The notes under the pieces were generated by a model that was not told where the DNA came from, ran no database searches, and saw nothing but the letters and a program-made list of their open reading frames with translations. This document shows, piece by piece, positions 52,330 through 61,175 of a DNA stretch of 64,000 bases; position 1 is the first letter of the stretch, and every line of letters begins with the position of its first letter. The position numbers were made by a program, and so were the translations under genes. The DNA is from Desulfomonilia bacterium (GTDB taxonomy: Bacteria > Desulfobacterota > Desulfomonilia > UBA1062), in assembly GCA_036567785.1 (NCBI GenBank), contig DATCTV010000034.1:1-64000 (forward strand), read 5' to 3'.

Positions 52330-52788
52330 ATGGCAAAACAGAAAGTTAAAAAAATAAAAAAGATATTGTGTTATGTGGACCTCAGCAAAAGCAGCAGATA
52401 TGTTATTGAATACGCAAAACAAGTCTCGGACCTTACTGGAGCTGAAATCTTCTTTCTTCATACGGTAACAGATTTAGGAAGGTTCGCAGGGTTTTATGTG
52501 CCGCATATGAGCACTGACAGCCTTTCCAGCGAGATGATGAAATCCGCCAAAGACAAGCTCTATGCCGTTTGCATGCAGACTATAGGAGAGATCGACGCCT
52601 CAAAAAGAATTATAAAAGAAGGCGATATCGTTGAAGCCATTCAGGAAGAAATAGACAGAATCGGTATCGACATCCTGGTAATCGGCCATGATTTCAGAAC
52701 TTTTTCGTTCTTCAAGGAAGATTATGTGACCAGGTACCTGAAAGATCCGGCGTGCCCGGTTCTTGTTATTCCTCTCGCAGTAGATTAA
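52330..52788 (+). CDS. Universal stress protein
   Basis: This 152-residue UspA-fold protein has the N-terminal basic strand KKILCYVDLSKSSRYVIEYAKQ and a C-terminal VIGHDFRT...PACPVLVIP. The usual ATP-binding glycine motif GxxGxxxxxxxxxG(S/T) is not present, so it may not bind ATP. AGGAGGG precedes the start. It follows two response regulators, suggesting a signalling-linked stress role. Its 3' end overlaps the opposite-strand gene by 23 bases. Confidence 0.85.
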   Translation: MAKQKVKKIKKILCYVDLSKSSRYVIEYAKQVSDLTGAEIFFLHTVTDLGRFAGFYVPHMSTDSLSSEMMKSAKDKLYAVCMQTIGEIDASKRIIKEGDIVEAIQEEIDRIGIDILVIGHDFRTFSFFKEDYVTRYLKDPACPVLVIPLAVD

Positions 52789-53413
52789 CAGTACCCATAA
52801 GGAAAGATAAAAAGGGCTTATCCGGACTTCCGTCGACTTGGATTACGATAAGACCCTTTTTATCAAACACCAGCCCCATCTGCTTAGAAGAAGAAAGGAA
52901 CCCTATTCCGTCAGCCCCTTCCGGAAAGATGATACATGCCGTATCATCGCCCCGCATCCACCTGGGGACAATGTCCGCCCTCACTCCGAAAAATACCGGA
53001 TTATACCGCTTTTCAAATACGTTTTTCATGATTTCTGCAGTGCTTTTCGAGGATAAATCTCCTGACATCATCCTGTTAAAAGGCTTATTGAGCACAGATT
53101 TTATCTGCGTTTCGTAACCGCTGTTTTTACCTTTGGATATCAATCCTGAAACATGTTTGCTGCTTGAAAAAAACCTTATTGAACCGTTCATAATTTCAAA
53201 ACCCATATCATCAGGAATACATGCATCGATAATGTCCGACCTTACATGCCTGCATTGACTTGAAACAGGCTTGACTATTTCCGGCTTTAACATCAACTCC
53301 GGTGTCAGTTTGAAAGCCCGTGTTATATAAAATCCGAAAAAGCAGACAAGTATGATAATGAAACCTGCAAGAAACCTTATCTGAATGTTGCCAGATTTGT
53401 TCCTTAGAACCAT
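52766..53413 (-). CDS. Membrane-anchored protein of unknown function
   Basis: This 215-residue protein has one N-terminal membrane helix (IRFLAGFIIILVCFFGFYI) and a soluble part with no recognised motif. Two Cys (SQCRH, DACIPDD) near the start of the soluble part could form a disulphide. It overlaps the preceding gene by ten bases, so they form a pair translated together. The soluble part would face the periplasm. Confidence 0.65.
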   Translation of the reverse strand: MVLRNKSGNIQIRFLAGFIIILVCFFGFYITRAFKLTPELMLKPEIVKPVSSQCRHVRSDIIDACIPDDMGFEIMNGSIRFFSSSKHVSGLISKGKNSGYETQIKSVLNKPFNRMMSGDLSSKSTAEIMKNVFEKRYNPVFFGVRADIVPRWMRGDDTACIIFPEGADGIGFLSSSKQMGLVFDKKGLIVIQVDGSPDKPFLSFLMGTVNLLREE

Positions 53414-53667
53414 TTTGGCTTGATGGGTTTGTCTGAAAATGTCTGGTGCACCGGGGGCGGCATATGGTCTCCCGGCTCAGGAGTCAACCGGGGCGGCTTT
53501 GGAATTTCCGGGGAATGTGGATGATGCATGCTGTCATCAGGTTCTTCTTCCTCTGCATGCGGCTGTTTGACCACGAACTTTTTACCGAGCAGCTTCATGA
53601 TCATTGGCGCCAGAAGAAAAACCGCTATAATGATTATGGAGATCAGATTCTGTTCTTTACCTTCCAT
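53404..53667 (-). CDS. Small membrane protein with proline- and histidine-rich tail
   Basis: This 87-residue protein has a single membrane helix (LISIIIIAVFLLAPMIMKLL) and a tail that is acidic, then Pro/His-rich (HAEEEEPDDSMHHPHSPEIP). The tail might bind metal or act as a spacer. It lies upstream of and overlaps the 215-residue protein gene. No family was recognised. Confidence 0.65.
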   Translation of the reverse strand: MEGKEQNLISIIIIAVFLLAPMIMKLLGKKFVVKQPHAEEEEPDDSMHHPHSPEIPKPPRLTPEPGDHMPPPVHQTFSDKPIKPKWF

Positions 53668-55375: not shown

Positions 55376-56512
55376 TCACAAACCCTTCAAGTACAGGCCT
55401 ACCCTGCGGATGCCTTCAATGATATTAGCCTCGGAATTGGCATAGGAAAACCGTATAAAACTCTTTACCTCATGCCCGAAGTCGATACCTGGCGTCACGC
55501 CGACACCCGTGTTCTTGAGTATGTCAAATGCAAGCCTGTACGAGTCATCCGTTATATGATCGATATTCGCCATTACATAAAATGCGCCGGTGGGTCTTGA
55601 CTCGACCCTGAAGCCGTATTTTTCCATTTCGGAGAGCATTACAATCCTGCGTTTTGCGAAAACCTCCTTCATGGCCTCGCAGTCGGGACCGGCTTTTTCA
55701 AGGGCGGCCACTCCCGCCCACTGTGCAAAAGAAGGCGCGCATATTACAAGATTCTGCTGCAGCTTCTGCGCAGCCCTTATAAGCCTTTTCGGGAATATCG
55801 CCCAGCCAAGCCGCCAGCCTGTCATGGCCCAGGCCTTTGAAAAACCGTTAATGATAATGGCATCGTCTGTGAATTCTCTCATTGTATGCTGCTCGCCTTC
55901 ATAAACAAGGCCGTGATATATCTCGTCGGATATTATCGTTATGCCTGATTCGGCAAGCGCAGCCATCCTGTCCCTGTCCAGACACACGCCCGTTGGGTTT
56001 GACGGGGAATTTATGAGTATGGCCCTGGTATTATGATGAATGGCAGCCCTCACCCTATCGGGATCGAGCCTGAATCCGTCGTTACGTGTAGGCACATAAT
56101 CTATCACTGCATCCAGAACGCGTGCAAAGTTCGGATAGCATGCATAGCGGGGATCGGTCATGATAATACTGTCACCCGCATCCAGCAGCACTGCAAATGC
56201 AATGAGAAGAGCCGCGGATGAACCTGTTGTCACAAGCACCTGTGAAGGGTCAACGTCAACCCCGTATGTTCTTTTGTAATGTGCGCATATCGCCTCCCTC
56301 AGTTCGGGTATGGCCAGAGAATGCGTATAATGGGTCTTTCCTTCTTCCATAGCCTTTATGGCCGCCGTCCTGACGCAAAGAGGCGTGTCGAAATCGGGCT
56401 CGCCCACTTCGAGATGAATGACGCCCATTTCATTGGGCAGGTCATGCGCCGCCTCGAGTATGTCCATTACAAGAAAGGGCTTAATGTCTTCTGCTTTTCG
56501 CGAGATGTGCAT
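55376..56512 (-). CDS. PLP-dependent aminotransferase (class I/II)
   Basis: This 378-residue enzyme has the family pattern LEVGEPDFDTP near 35, INSPSNPTGV near 170 and the PLP lysine in INGFSKAWAMTGWRLGW near 230, with R..FS near the end. It resembles aspartate or alanine-type aminotransferases of the AspB/AlaA group. The substrate is not certain. It lies three bases upstream of engB. Confidence 0.88.
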   Translation of the reverse strand: MHISRKAEDIKPFLVMDILEAAHDLPNEMGVIHLEVGEPDFDTPLCVRTAAIKAMEEGKTHYTHSLAIPELREAICAHYKRTYGVDVDPSQVLVTTGSSAALLIAFAVLLDAGDSIIMTDPRYACYPNFARVLDAVIDYVPTRNDGFRLDPDRVRAAIHHNTRAILINSPSNPTGVCLDRDRMAALAESGITIISDEIYHGLVYEGEQHTMREFTDDAIIINGFSKAWAMTGWRLGWAIFPKRLIRAAQKLQQNLVICAPSFAQWAGVAALEKAGPDCEAMKEVFAKRRIVMLSEMEKYGFRVESRPTGAFYVMANIDHITDDSYRLAFDILKNTGVGVTPGIDFGHEVKSFIRFSYANSEANIIEGIRRVGLYLKGL

Positions 56513-56514
56513 GT

Positions 56515-56826
56515 CTATTCCTTAAAGTCTTTATTTTCTTCAGTTTCATCCGGCAATCCTGTTTGTCTTCTGAATCTGATAAAATAAATTACAGGCCAGG
56601 GGAGTACAATGAGCGTGCTCAGCACTGACAGGTGCCATCCTTTGCTGATAAGAGAGCTGCCAAGCTGTTCCACCCTCCAATCCGGCGCAAGAAGGCCGCA
56701 TATGACGAGCCCGAACCAGACATACAAGAAGAGCATTACATGGAAGTGATACCTGAGAAGCCATACAATCCGCCTTTTGAGGCCCTTATCCGGAAATGAA
56801 ATGTCTTTTTCTGATGTCTCATTCAT
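56515..56826 (-). CDS. Small two-helix membrane protein
   Basis: This 103-residue protein has two hydrophobic segments (FHVMLFLYVWFGLVICGLLA and HLSVLSTLIVLPWPVIYFI) with charged ends. ATG 56826 is chosen over GTG 56835 because AAGGGG lies in front. The family is unknown. It follows a DUF422-like membrane protein and an Fe-S protein on the same strand, and could be a third subunit of a membrane complex. Confidence 0.65.
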   Translation of the reverse strand: MNETSEKDISFPDKGLKRRIVWLLRYHFHVMLFLYVWFGLVICGLLAPDWRVEQLGSSLISKGWHLSVLSTLIVLPWPVIYFIRFRRQTGLPDETEENKDFKE

Positions 56827-56842
56827 GACAGTCACCCCTTTA

Positions 56843-57673
56843 TCAGATGTTGAACAGTATGGTAACCGGTAATAAAATCATGATGACAATCACCATGAGG
56901 TATAAAACGACCGTTTTTTTGATCTCACCCCAGCCGTTTTTGGATTCAACCCATCTGAACGAGAACGAGAACATGAACACCAGCAGAATCCAGTCTATGA
57001 AATTGATGAGCGGGATACCCAGAATCCTTGTGGGATACCTGAGGCCGTCTGGAAAGAACCCTGCAAAAAACCTGAGTACCGCATTATCCGGCGTGGTCAT
57101 GAAGACATGGTTATCAAAATTGTAGGCGTCTATCACCCCGGGACCGATCGATACTACGCCCTTTTCACAAGGCACCCAGAGCCACCAGTTGTATATCGTG
57201 GCAAGAGGGTCTTCTATGAGGTCAATCATCACGCAGATGCTTGCATCGATCACAGCCAGGAGAAGTATGGTTTTTACGATGGAACCTTTGAATAATGCAA
57301 ATTCCCTGGCTTCCGGGTGGTATCCGTCCTTTTCATAAGTCTTCAAGGAGCGCGGCCCGTAAACTATGCGGTTCGTGAATTCGATCACGATATATACTAT
57401 CGCCACCCAGGAAAGCGGGTTTAAAAGAGGCGTCGCATAAACATAAACACTGAAGCCGGGGTATATGTACGCCCCGCAGAGCACGCCCAGATTTTCAACG
57501 ACCGCGGTAAGGAAAAAACCTGCCGAAAATTCCCTCAGTGTCCTTTTCCATCCGTGCACCCAGGTGGAATGCGCAAAACATAAGACGAACATCGAAATGA
57601 GGCTCACCTCGAACATCGTCTTCATGAAGCGCGCAGGTTCAATCCCGAAAAGATCAAAGAATGCTCCCGCCAT
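56843..57673 (-). CDS. Membrane protein resembling the carotenoid biosynthesis CruF/DUF422 family
   Basis: This 276-residue protein has about six or seven hydrophobic segments. The pattern VVENLGVLCGAYIYPGF, PLLNPLSWVAIVYIVIEF, DPLATIYNWWLW and IPLINFIDWILL recalls DUF422/CruF carotenoid hydratases, though the match is partial. No other carotenoid genes are in the window. It begins one base after the stop of an Fe-S protein gene, so a redox or lipid-modifying membrane complex is possible. The assignment is tentative. Confidence 0.6.
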   Translation of the reverse strand: MAGAFFDLFGIEPARFMKTMFEVSLISMFVLCFAHSTWVHGWKRTLREFSAGFFLTAVVENLGVLCGAYIYPGFSVYVYATPLLNPLSWVAIVYIVIEFTNRIVYGPRSLKTYEKDGYHPEAREFALFKGSIVKTILLLAVIDASICVMIDLIEDPLATIYNWWLWVPCEKGVVSIGPGVIDAYNFDNHVFMTTPDNAVLRFFAGFFPDGLRYPTRILGIPLINFIDWILLVFMFSFSFRWVESKNGWGEIKKTVVLYLMVIVIMILLPVTILFNI

Positions 57674-58522
57674 TCATCGCTCTCCGGTTACATGTTCCGG
57701 CCATCTTTTTCTGGGGACCATGCTTATTGCATTGTTGGGGCAGACCTTTATGCACTGTCCGCACCCGTAGCACCTCTCATACGATACCAGTGAAGACTGT
57801 TTTTTCCCGTTCCTTTTTATCACCTGCCTCGCCTTGAAGTGGCAGACCTGCGCACATCTCCCTCTACCATCACACTTCGAGTTGTCCGTAGCTGCAATCA
57901 AGTCGCCGTGAATAATCACTCTGGATTTATACCCTATGGCCTCGTTTGCAAGAAAGGGCGCGCATGTGGGTGAAGAGCAGTGGCATATTCCGGCGTCCCC
58001 GTCCCTTATCACATAAACGTTTGACACGAGTCCCATGTTCTGGCAACTCGTCTCGATTTCAAGAAGTTCCTTTTTGCTTATTATCCGGTATGTCTCGAGC
58101 CTGCCGAACTTTTCGCCGCATGTGCCTATCTGGATATCGACATCGATCGGGGTATCCATGAACATGTCGAGCCTGCCACCTGCAATATCCCTTGCATCCG
58201 GCCCGAGATCTTTGGCCGTATCCAGCCTGCATGCGCAAGGGCCCGCAGCAATGGGAAATTCCTCCGGCAGTTTGTCGATATAATCATATATTTCGTTAGC
58301 GCTCATGATTTTTGTCACGACGGTCGCCGATGCCAGGACATCGAATATCCGGTGCACCAGCCTTATGGGCAGTTTCTTTTCCGCTTCGAGAAACCTGAGC
58401 ACCGCTTGCATCACAAGAGGTTCCCTAGGGGCGTAAAATTCTATGAGCTTTTCCCGGCCCTTTCTGTCATGGATCTTTACCCTTTCCTCACGGTCTTTTA
58501 GCCAGGGTTCCTTGTCTTTCAT
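57674..58522 (-). CDS. Iron-sulphur protein with ferredoxin domain
   Basis: This 282-residue protein has several cysteine groups. PCACR is near residue 95, ICHCSSPTC near 180 and CDGRGRCAQVC near 217. A complete ferredoxin motif CYGCGQCIKVCP is near 253. It has no signal peptide and is probably cytoplasmic, facing the membrane. It is encoded directly before a membrane protein with no gap, so the two probably interact. The enzymatic role is unknown. Confidence 0.8.
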   Translation of the reverse strand: MKDKEPWLKDREERVKIHDRKGREKLIEFYAPREPLVMQAVLRFLEAEKKLPIRLVHRIFDVLASATVVTKIMSANEIYDYIDKLPEEFPIAAGPCACRLDTAKDLGPDARDIAGGRLDMFMDTPIDVDIQIGTCGEKFGRLETYRIISKKELLEIETSCQNMGLVSNVYVIRDGDAGICHCSSPTCAPFLANEAIGYKSRVIIHGDLIAATDNSKCDGRGRCAQVCHFKARQVIKRNGKKQSSLVSYERCYGCGQCIKVCPNNAISMVPRKRWPEHVTGER

Positions 58523-58525
58523 TCT

Positions 58526-59920
58526 TCAGTCTGACTCTTTCAATTTGATAAAATTCAAAGCTTCGCTTTTATTTGTTATTAGACCTTCCGCACGGGCCTC
58601 CTCGACCCTGACAAGAAGCTTGCCGACTTCCGGGCCGGGTCCTATCCCGAGTTCAGCCATGACATCGTTGCCGTTTAAAAGAGGCTCTTTCCTGTTGTTC
58701 AGATACACATCAATATAATATTCCCAGATGCGTCTTATCATTTCTTCAATCTCTGTCCTGACGCCTATATAGCCGGGGTCTTTACCTGTAGCCACGGCAT
58801 CGGCAAGAGAAAGAAGCAGGAGTTCCGGCATGAATGCTTCAGCGTTCTTTATAAGCCTATGCATCGCCTTTGTCGTCATTATTCCGCCGCAGGCCAGATC
58901 CAGGACCCTCATATGCATGCCGATCAGTCCTGAGATACTCGAGCAGAAGGCGGATGAAAACCTGAGGTTCCTGCAAAGCGTATCCGCAATTTTCGCACCA
59001 GCGCCGGCATGGGCATAAAAATGCACCATGCCGTTTTCAGCGTCTTCGCGAGTCGAAGGTTTCCCGATATCATGCATAAAAGCGGCAAGCCTGAGCATGC
59101 AGGCCCTGTCAATGCCGTCCTCAACCTCTTCGGACAGCATAGCACCTGCCCCCGGCAGGAGATCTTCCGCTTCGTCAATAAGCGCATCAACGGTCTCGGC
59201 AACGAGTGTGGCGTGCTTTATAAGCGGCCAGCGGTGGTAAACACCCTGATATATGTCTTCGTATCCCGGAAACAGGATTTCCCTGATTCCCGTCTCTTCC
59301 ATGAGGGAGAATATACCTGCGCCTCTCTTATATGAAAGGGCGCAGACCAGCTCCTGTTTTATCCGTTCCGGTGCGATATTTTTCAGCCCCGGCGCATATT
59401 TCTTTATCAATGAGGTCGTGCCGTCCTCTATCGAGAACTCGAGCACTGCAGCAAACCTGAGACATCTGAAAGTCCTCAGTGCATCATCTGCGAACCCTTT
59501 TTCCGATACGGCCCTGATAGTCCTGCTGTTAAGATCGCTGACACCGTTTAACGGGTCATGTATTTCCATGTTTGCGAGGTTAAGCGCAATTGCATTGATG
59601 GTGATGTCGCGGTTAAGAAGGTCTTCATTCAGGCTCGACCCTTTGGGTGCGCACACGTCGAGAGTGATGCCATCTCTCGATACGGTCCTTGCTATGCCGC
59701 GGCTTTCGTCCATCCAGAACGGTTTCGAACCCAGGCAGGACGCTAGTGTTAAGGCCTTGTCCCATACGTTGCCGAAGGTAAGTATGTCGTAGTCGACGGG
59801 GATTTTACCGAGCAGCAGATCCCTTACACTGCCGCCGACAAGGTAGTCGCTCTCATCAAGAGTCCGGCTTATCCGCCTGATTACCTCGTTATCTTTTGCG
59901 ATAGTCCACTGCTCGGGCAT
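58526..59920 (-). CDS. cca: tRNA nucleotidyltransferase/poly(A) polymerase family protein with HD domain
   Basis: This 464-residue protein has the nucleotidyltransferase motif LVGGSVRDLLLGKIPVDYDI. It has RNA-binding CCA-enzyme helices (ALRTFRCLRFAAVLEFSIE) and an HD domain with AAFMHDIGKPSTRED. It either adds CCA to tRNA or is a related A- or CC-adding enzyme. ATG 59920 with GGAGG upstream is chosen. It overlaps the end of hisD by about 32 bases, and the Fe-S gene follows four bases later. Confidence 0.88.
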   Translation of the reverse strand: MPEQWTIAKDNEVIRRISRTLDESDYLVGGSVRDLLLGKIPVDYDILTFGNVWDKALTLASCLGSKPFWMDESRGIARTVSRDGITLDVCAPKGSSLNEDLLNRDITINAIALNLANMEIHDPLNGVSDLNSRTIRAVSEKGFADDALRTFRCLRFAAVLEFSIEDGTTSLIKKYAPGLKNIAPERIKQELVCALSYKRGAGIFSLMEETGIREILFPGYEDIYQGVYHRWPLIKHATLVAETVDALIDEAEDLLPGAGAMLSEEVEDGIDRACMLRLAAFMHDIGKPSTREDAENGMVHFYAHAGAGAKIADTLCRNLRFSSAFCSSISGLIGMHMRVLDLACGGIMTTKAMHRLIKNAEAFMPELLLLSLADAVATGKDPGYIGVRTEIEEMIRRIWEYYIDVYLNNRKEPLLNGNDVMAELGIGPGPEVGKLLVRVEEARAEGLITNKSEALNFIKLKESD

Positions 59921-61175
59921 GTGCCTCCAGGTCTTCCGCCCGGGCAATACAGGCCGCCTTTGACCCTAGCTCGAGCACAGCTTTTTCGGACATTCCGACA
60001 ATGGAAGTCCTTTTCACAAAATCATAAACCCCCAGAGGCGAGTAGAACCTTGCCGTCGAGGAAGTCGGCAGCGTGTGATTGGGGCCTGCTATATAATCGC
60101 CTATCGATTCCATTGAATGGTATCCGAGGAATACCGCCCCGGCATTTTCAACTCTGCCTAGCAGTTCAAAAGGATTTCCGACCATGAGCTCCAGATGCTC
60201 AGGGGCAATCATGTTGGCGATGTCGAGGGCCTCGCTGATATCGTGCGTAAGGATGAACGCCCCGTGGCTTGCAAGCGATTCATTAGCGATATCCTTCCTG
60301 GGCAGACTTTCCATCTCGCTTTCAATAAGTTTCATAACTTGCGCCGCCAGCTTTTTATCCGGCGTAATAAGCATGGACGAGGCCGCCGTATCGTGTTCCG
60401 CCTGAGACAAGAGGTCTATCGCCACCCATCTCGGGTCTGCCCCGCTGTCTGCGACAACGACGATCTCAGAAGGCCCGGCCACCGCCTCGATACCTATAAT
60501 ACCCTGCAGGATTGACTTTGCATGGGCAACATAGACATTGCCCGGGCCCACCACCTTATCAACTCTCGGAACGGATTCGGTACCGAAGGCAAGGGCAGCA
60601 ATCGCCTGGGCGCCGCCTATTCTGTAGATTTTTTCAATGCCGGCAATGTGTGCGGCCGCAAGCAGTGCGTTATTCACCCTGGCCTTGGGAGTCGGTGAGA
60701 CAACGACAATATTCTTTACCCCTGCAATTTTCGCAGGGATCACATTCATGAGAAAGGTGGATGGAAATGCATTCCGGCCGCCGGGAGTATAGACGCCAAC
60801 ACTCGCAATCGGCGTCACTTTCTGCCCCAGGATGGAACCGGTTTCGTCCGTTGTTATCCATGAATTTTCCTTCTGCCGCAAATGAAACGCCTCAATCCTT
60901 TCAGCCGCAGTCAAGAGCGCGTCGTAAAGGCTTTTATCAATTTTCGATGCAGCCTTGTTTATCTCCTTTGAGGTAAATGCAATACCGTTCTTCTCAGGAT
61001 CGTATTCATCAAACCTGCGTGTAAGGTCAAAAAGGGCCTTGTCTCCGTCTTCCCTGACTTTTTCTATAATCTCCCTGACAACGATATCGATATCAGGCGA
61101 AGTGATCCTCTTGCGGTCAAGGATTTCATCGAGTTTAATTTTCCACCCTGTCTCGGATGTTCTGATGGTCTGCAT
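59889..61175 (-). CDS. hisD: Histidinol dehydrogenase
   Basis: This 428-residue NAD-dependent zinc enzyme performs the last two steps of histidine synthesis. Motifs are PGGRNAFPSTFLMNVIPA, VAGPSEIVVVADS, the zinc ligands in LLSQAEHDTAA and PEHLELMVGNP. Length is normal. It is the only his gene in the window and follows murA after four bases. This murA-his arrangement is found in deltaproteobacteria, where hisG is often between them but is missing here. Confidence 0.93.
   Translation of the reverse strand: MQTIRTSETGWKIKLDEILDRKRITSPDIDIVVREIIEKVREDGDKALFDLTRRFDEYDPEKNGIAFTSKEINKAASKIDKSLYDALLTAAERIEAFHLRQKENSWITTDETGSILGQKVTPIASVGVYTPGGRNAFPSTFLMNVIPAKIAGVKNIVVVSPTPKARVNNALLAAAHIAGIEKIYRIGGAQAIAALAFGTESVPRVDKVVGPGNVYVAHAKSILQGIIGIEAVAGPSEIVVVADSGADPRWVAIDLLSQAEHDTAASSMLITPDKKLAAQVMKLIESEMESLPRKDIANESLASHGAFILTHDISEALDIANMIAPEHLELMVGNPFELLGRVENAGAVFLGYHSMESIGDYIAGPNHTLPTSSTARFYSPLGVYDFVKRTSIVGMSEKAVLELGSKAACIARAEDLEAHARAVDYRKR

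Follow-up and report, generated by a model that had tools for sequence, protein, structure and literature searches.

Gene organization of the locus

The sequence analysed here, referred to as the window, is a stretch of 64,000 nucleotides from a Desulfomonilia bacterium (assembly GCA_036567785.1, contig DATCTV010000034.1, positions 1-64,000). Three consecutive genes at 56515-58522, together with the two genes that flank them, are listed below with the evidence for each.

57674..58522, minus strand: gene 1, a 2xFer4 protein of 282 aa with a Cys-bearing N-terminal region (ORF; Fer4_21 40.8 bits, Fer4 37.2 bits; family alignment)
56843..57673, minus strand: gene 2, a PF04240 (Caroten_synth/DUF422) membrane protein of 276 aa (ORF, Pfam, hydropathy, alignments)
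56515..56835, minus strand: gene 3, 106 aa with two hydrophobic segments (ORF with a GTG start; alternative ATG at 56826)
58526..59947, minus strand: flanking cca-type nucleotidyltransferase, the end of a conserved murA-hisD-cca block (Pfam, loci of relatives)
55376..56512, minus strand: flanking class I/II aminotransferase, the start of a conserved aspAT-engB block (Pfam, loci of relatives)

The gene order is murA-hisD-cca-[1-2-3]-aspAT-engB-ddl. Both immediate flanks, cca and the aminotransferase, have Pfam matches; the names murA, hisD, engB and ddl are our assignments by eye. Genes 1 and 2 are separated by 0 bases and genes 2 and 3 by 7 bases (16 if gene 3 is started at its later ATG, nine bases on). 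An earlier note on this DNA had described three genes with gaps of 0 to 16 bases, and the ORFs on the minus strand bear this out; yet such packing is common to the whole string, where the other gaps are likewise a few bases or overlaps. Since cca, aspAT, engB and ddl are packed equally closely, the packing is not evidence for a special trio.

In GC content, GC3 and codon use, genes 1 and 2 agreed with 14 reference ORFs of the window, and the GC content of gene 3 was slightly lower. Given the match in GC3 and codon use, genes 1 and 2 look neither decaying nor freshly foreign. Horizontal transfer as judged by composition was rejected, GC and codon use being unremarkable. Downstream of ddl, at 52766-53667 of the window, a pair of small ORFs, of 215 and 87 aa, has no Pfam match; several relatives also have them in the vicinity of aspAT-engB.

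Conservation of the trio and of the flanking blocks

A lack of co-occurrence in related genomes, which the earlier note had named as counting against its reading, is what was seen, in the form of absence: the trio was found in none of the examined relatives (98 relatives, 394 phylum genomes). With gene 2 as a query, 14 of the 98 other relatives were matched at E<=0.001, all weakly and distantly, and matches at E<=1e-5 were found in 4 of the 394 other phylum genomes; local identity of the matches, the query itself aside, was 20-41%. No close relative of gene 2 was found in the scanned genome contigs (one scan was empty and another gave two distant PF04240 genes), and plasmids, phages and viral contigs gave no match. 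Gene 3, searched in 395 phylum genomes, matched its own place and, weakly, 8 of the 394 others (best E 4.6e-4).

The flanks are conserved separately. The aspAT-engB pair was kept in all 18 family loci and in neither of two loci of the class's other family; the genes that precede it in relatives are, judged by eye, presumably xseA-xseB. In relatives murA-hisD-cca forms a block of its own, with hisD and cca detected by BLAST in 10/10 loci and murA in 8/10, the two missing copies of murA being hidden by greedy ORF calls. The trio thus sits where the window genome joins two separately conserved blocks, and this join was seen in no examined relative. The three genes may either have been inserted into an existing join or have arrived together with it.

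It is quite possible, if somewhat doubtful, that these are chance neighbours, three unrelated genes caught where two operon blocks joined and sharing transcription alone. The equal packing of the whole string, the separate standing of the two blocks in relatives and the absence of the trio from every relative all agree with such an origin; that the three extra genes are contiguous, and not scattered among the housekeeping genes, speaks against it. Further evidence on both sides comes from the neighbourhoods of other PF04240 genes, described below.

Gene 1, an iron-sulphur protein with lost ligands

The Cys-containing sites of gene 1, and the sites that correspond to them in its relatives, are as follows.

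57740..57772, minus strand: complete ferredoxin motif CYGCGQCIKVC, residues 251-261 (sequence, motif scan)
57842..57874, minus strand: degenerate first ferredoxin motif CDGRGRCAQVC, residues 217-227, without the second Cys (family alignment)
57962..57985, minus strand: CHCSSPTC, residues 180-187, at the C[HN]CC-type motif site of longer relatives (alignment)
58136..58159, minus strand: MDTPIDVD, residues 122-129, at the CDxPLDxC-type site (alignment)
58229..58237, minus strand: N-terminal CxC, residues 96-98 (alignment)

Relatives of gene 1 in the class are 24-35% identical to it over the aligned parts and usually carry, in this order, CxCR, CDxPLDxC and C[HN]CC-type motifs followed by two ferredoxin motifs. 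No Pfam name was found for the N-terminal region of these anaerobe proteins. Gene 1 shares with them the CxC and CxC...C motifs and the two Fer4 repeats; it differs at two sites: neither Cys of CDxPLDxC is left, and the first Fer4 motif is without its second Cys. Both end Cys of CDxPLDxC are present in 10/10 of the longer relatives aligned, and the two shorter relatives, L078 and L065, are likewise missing at least one of these Cys.

The several Cys groups and complete ferredoxin motif reported earlier are borne out. One motif is complete (C251-x2-C254-x2-C257-x3-C261), but the first reads C217-DGRGR-C223-AQV-C227, so that of the two CxxCxxCxxxC motifs of a 2[4Fe-4S] ferredoxin domain only the second is complete in gene 1. 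The first site may hold a 3Fe-4S cluster or none. Judged by motifs and alignment, gene 1 belongs to a 2xFer4 family common and widespread in anaerobes and has lost Cys ligands.

A paralogue of gene 1 in the same genome (L065:4949-9698, G000:C13) has a Fer4 protein and a DUF169 gene as neighbours; a gene for a BcrAD_BadFG ATPase lies close by. Its surroundings look like an anaerobic catabolic cluster, and no PF04240 gene stands beside it.

Gene 2, a divergent member of PF04240

Gene 2 matched Pfam PF04240 (Caroten_synth, formerly DUF422) with 27.1 bits against a cut-off of 25, so the resemblance to CruF and DUF422 proposed from the sequence is real; NCBIfam gave nothing. The match is borderline, because six-frame genome searches with the same model did not list the own genome among the PF04240 matches at E<=0.001. 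As a whole word, 'DUF422' was not found in the open-access literature searched.

We aligned 90 PF04240 proteins from the fetched loci, the window included. Residues E60, D151, W164, N224 and W228 are invariant in 90/90 and D155 and P156 are present in 88/90; gene 2 has them all. The comparison of DUF422 residues thus came out in favour of membership, every residue invariant in the 90 members being kept. A smaller alignment of 30 proteins agrees (D155 in 29, P156 in 28). Two features set gene 2 apart.

57005..57181, minus strand: the W164-N224 interval of gene 2, 59 residues, with a window-specific insert (90-protein alignment)
56993..56995, minus strand: Asp227 of gene 2 (90-protein alignment)

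The W164-N224 interval is 59 residues long in gene 2 and does not exceed 20 in any of the other 89 proteins, which makes an insert of about 39 residues that is unique to gene 2 among the 90 proteins. Position 227 is Gly in 78/90 and Ala in 10/90 proteins, and its Asp is likewise found in gene 2 only. Hydropathy indicated about six membrane stretches. In a tree of 38 proteins gene 2 formed a long end branch (1.78) in an unresolved part, within a group of 24 rows that is apart from the 14-row group holding most of the high-scoring PF04240 members; gene 2 is in none of the starred groups that span half the rows or fewer, and the tool warns that long branches meet. Two structure models, with mean pLDDT of 46 and 36, were too poor for use.

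Compared with CruF and PF04240 proteins at large, gene 2 therefore shows a score over the Pfam cut-off, the kept E60, D151, D155-P156, W164, N224 and W228, and six hydrophobic regions. The differences are the 39-residue insert, Asp227, the long branch and a genome without phytoene/squalene synthase. On these sequence grounds we regard gene 2 as a genuine but extreme PF04240 member, whose insert and Asp227 may reflect changed or lost catalysis.

Carotenoid route and possible substrates

The absence of carotenoid genes, claimed for the window, holds genome-wide for one marker domain, PF00494 (phytoene/squalene synthase), on which our statement about carotenoids rests. Searches for it came up empty in the own genome (G000, 97% complete) and throughout the 24 genomes of the own family (G000 and 23 relatives); 7 of 14 control genomes were matched. 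A carotenoid pathway in this genome was rejected on the missing PF00494. With the marker absent from genome and family, a carotenoid substrate is unlikely for gene 2, and the substrate is probably something else. The own genome has two UbiA-type prenyltransferase genes, so a non-carotenoid isoprenoid substrate is possible.

We consider it very improbable that gene 2 is a normal carotenoid hydratase with a carotenoid substrate that is imported or produced elsewhere. PF04240 membership and the kept invariant residues fit such an enzyme. The lack of PF00494 in genome and family, the position of gene 2 in the tree apart from most high-scoring members, and the unique insert and Asp227 do not.

PF04240-type genes occur in 11/24 genomes of the own family, the own one included, when the gene 2 protein is the query, and in 6/24, the own one not among them, when the Pfam model is used. 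One form found in the family is about 307-324 aa long and sits between what we take by eye to be a trpA- or trpB-like gene and a glycosyltransferase; the member tested (L068) scored nothing in Pfam. At two further loci (L085:5551-10176, L086:7163-11623) a PF04240 gene lies between a 932-aa ORF and a UbiA-type gene, the UbiA match having been obtained for the same locus of G042. By eye the 932-aa ORF resembles an HMG-CoA-reductase/terpene-cyclase fusion.

Small two-TM neighbours of PF04240 genes

Gene 3 has two hydrophobic stretches by hydropathy, in line with the two-helix protein described before. No Pfam family scored over its cut-off, and PIG-P was rejected as an identification (12.6 bits compared to a cut-off of 39.3).

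For the neighbourhood test, a small two-TM ORF was defined as a same-strand ORF of 45-135 aa that lies no more than 120 bases away and has exactly two hydrophobic segments. The 78 loci used span all 57 genomes matched by the PF04240 search; the places G081:C313 and G116:C96 were not extended, and in one locus (L081) the HMM used detected no PF04240 gene. Of the 90 PF04240 genes, 12 have a small two-TM ORF abutting them (11/89 without the window), at seven loci: L072, L079, L205, L207, L209, L213 and the window, where genes 2 and 3 are on the same strand, abut at 7 bases and show the two hydrophobic segments. For the remaining ORFs of 150 aa or more in these 78 loci, which are mechanical calls with false frames included, the count was 7/576. 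It was 0/64 for those among them with at least 4 hydrophobic segments. In an earlier control on 52 loci, 6/505 ORFs had such a neighbour, as did 4/56 with at least 4 segments, all four of the latter being PF04240 genes. The Fisher p of about 4e-7 (2e-6 without the window) is inflated by related genomes and by tandem genes that share one neighbour; independent cases are few (families f1, f3, f13 and f33, and the window).

We observed, then, that diverse PF04240 genes, from at least one family without phytoene/squalene synthase, recur with small two-TM neighbours, and the window trio may be an unusual case of this pairing. The enrichment counts against chance neighbours as the explanation of the locus.

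The small proteins fall into families of their own. Those of G004, G001, G052, G124 and G108 align mutually at low identity, and those of G116, G081 and G042 are a second family. Homology of gene 3 with these proteins was unsupported: the hhalign probability against four members of the first family was 0.3%, and no BLASTP alignment was obtained with the second (f3-type) proteins. Lacking a detectable resemblance, gene 3 can be paired with them by position and architecture only. The divergent genes at G004:C317, G001:C211, G052:C105, G124:C5 and G108:C578 are like gene 2 in their low PF04240 scores and an adjoining small membrane ORF; they differ in standing in tandem arrays (4/5), in their small-protein family and in having no adjoining Fe-S gene.

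One array (L072, G004:C317:1-9012) consists of seven PF04240-type genes in tandem, all on one strand, and two 72-aa two-TM ORFs overlap or abut these genes; PF00494 is absent from this genome. Arrays of two or three PF04240 genes were seen at L205:5951-8975 (G124:C5), L079:10952-13005 (G052:C105) and L073:3250-6553 (G001:C211), where the interleaved small membrane ORFs are mutually alignable.

Iron-sulphur neighbours of PF04240 genes

An ORF with a C..C..C...C motif abuts 2/90 PF04240 genes compared to 4/576 other ORFs, and lies within 3 kb of 4/90. The two genes concerned are that of the window and one at G116:C50, where the neighbour is a CCG-type Fe-S protein that follows an FAD_binding_4 gene. 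Among 47 loci examined earlier, with flanks of about 1.5 kb, the motif was found beside the window's PF04240 gene only. With so few Fe-S genes abutting PF04240 genes, gene 1 has the weakest claim to belong, and the count also suits chance neighbours.

Redox genes were also seen near PF04240 genes of family f3. In G116 a pair of PF04240 genes comes after FAD_binding_4 and CCG Fe-S genes; in G042 redox genes of these two kinds are found about 3 kb from a PF04240 gene. These loci (G116:C50, G042:C70) resemble the window in having PF04240 near redox genes, with one of the gene types abutted by a small two-TM ORF; they differ in having a CCG-type Fe-S protein in place of gene 1's Fer4 type, and in that two PF04240 types are involved. 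The loci L212 (G042:C70), L213 (G081:C99) and L207 (G116:C50) share a PF04240 gene, a 439-441-aa protein and small two-TM genes that belong to a single family; the 439-441-aa protein had no Pfam or NCBIfam match in those tested. In addition, L212 and L207 carry FAD_binding_4 and CCG Fe-S genes, and L213 carries a molybdopterin oxidoreductase.

The putative redox complex of the earlier note is unproven, being unsupported beyond adjacency, with the trio unconserved and an Fe-S ORF beside 2/90 PF04240 genes. In favour of the note's reading are the recurrence of small two-TM ORFs next to PF04240 genes and the redox genes near those of family f3. We find it quite unlikely that gene 1 passes electrons to a reaction of gene 2 with gene 3 as a membrane anchor. 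The immediate adjacency of genes 1 and 2 (0 bases) and the f3 genes near FAD_binding_4 and CCG Fe-S genes (G116; about 3 kb away in G042) would fit such a complex, but gene 1 has lost Cys ligands, its relatives adjoin other genes, as does the own-genome paralogue beside DUF169, and the trio is not conserved. Moreover, PMC6013536 describes the carotenoid 1,2-hydratases known so far, among them those of the CruF family, as cofactor-free. Hydration chemistry of that kind therefore requires no electron donor, and electron donation by gene 1 would require a different reaction, or a regulatory role.

Interpretation

As the best explanation of the locus as a whole we tentatively favour a gene 2 that acts outside carotenoid metabolism, with gene 3 as its small partner and gene 1 loosely linked. 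Gene 2, as a membrane enzyme in the PF04240/CruF superfamily, would have left carotenoid metabolism. The kept acids and Asn suggest that it may still protonate or hydrate a C=C bond, most likely by CruF-like acid-base chemistry at the invariant E60, D151, D155 and N224. The bond could lie in a polyprenyl, in the side chain of a quinone, in an imported terpenoid or in some other non-carotenoid lipid. Gene 3 would be a two-helix partner that folds, holds or gates gene 2. The weakest link is gene 1, a presumably soluble 2xFer4 protein in the same gene string that may supply electrons or sense the redox state.

A broader conjecture, which we consider unlikely, is that a PF04240 branch independent of carotenoids pairs with two-helix subunits and acts on non-carotenoid isoprenoids or unsaturated lipids in anaerobes, sometimes coupled to Fe-S or flavin carriers. 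The window trio would then be a minimal redox-coupled form, in which Asp227 would be a new active-site acid and the extra loop could dock the Fe-S protein.

The window trio is a single unconserved case and alone cannot carry a claim about PF04240 outside carotenoid metabolism. The recurring small two-TM neighbours provide a concrete candidate partner for PF04240 enzymes. If these enzymes do act outside carotenoid metabolism, database names like 'carotenoid biosynthesis protein' would give a false picture of many anaerobes, and there would be substrates still to explore for a family of membrane enzymes whose known activity is the hydration of isolated C=C bonds.
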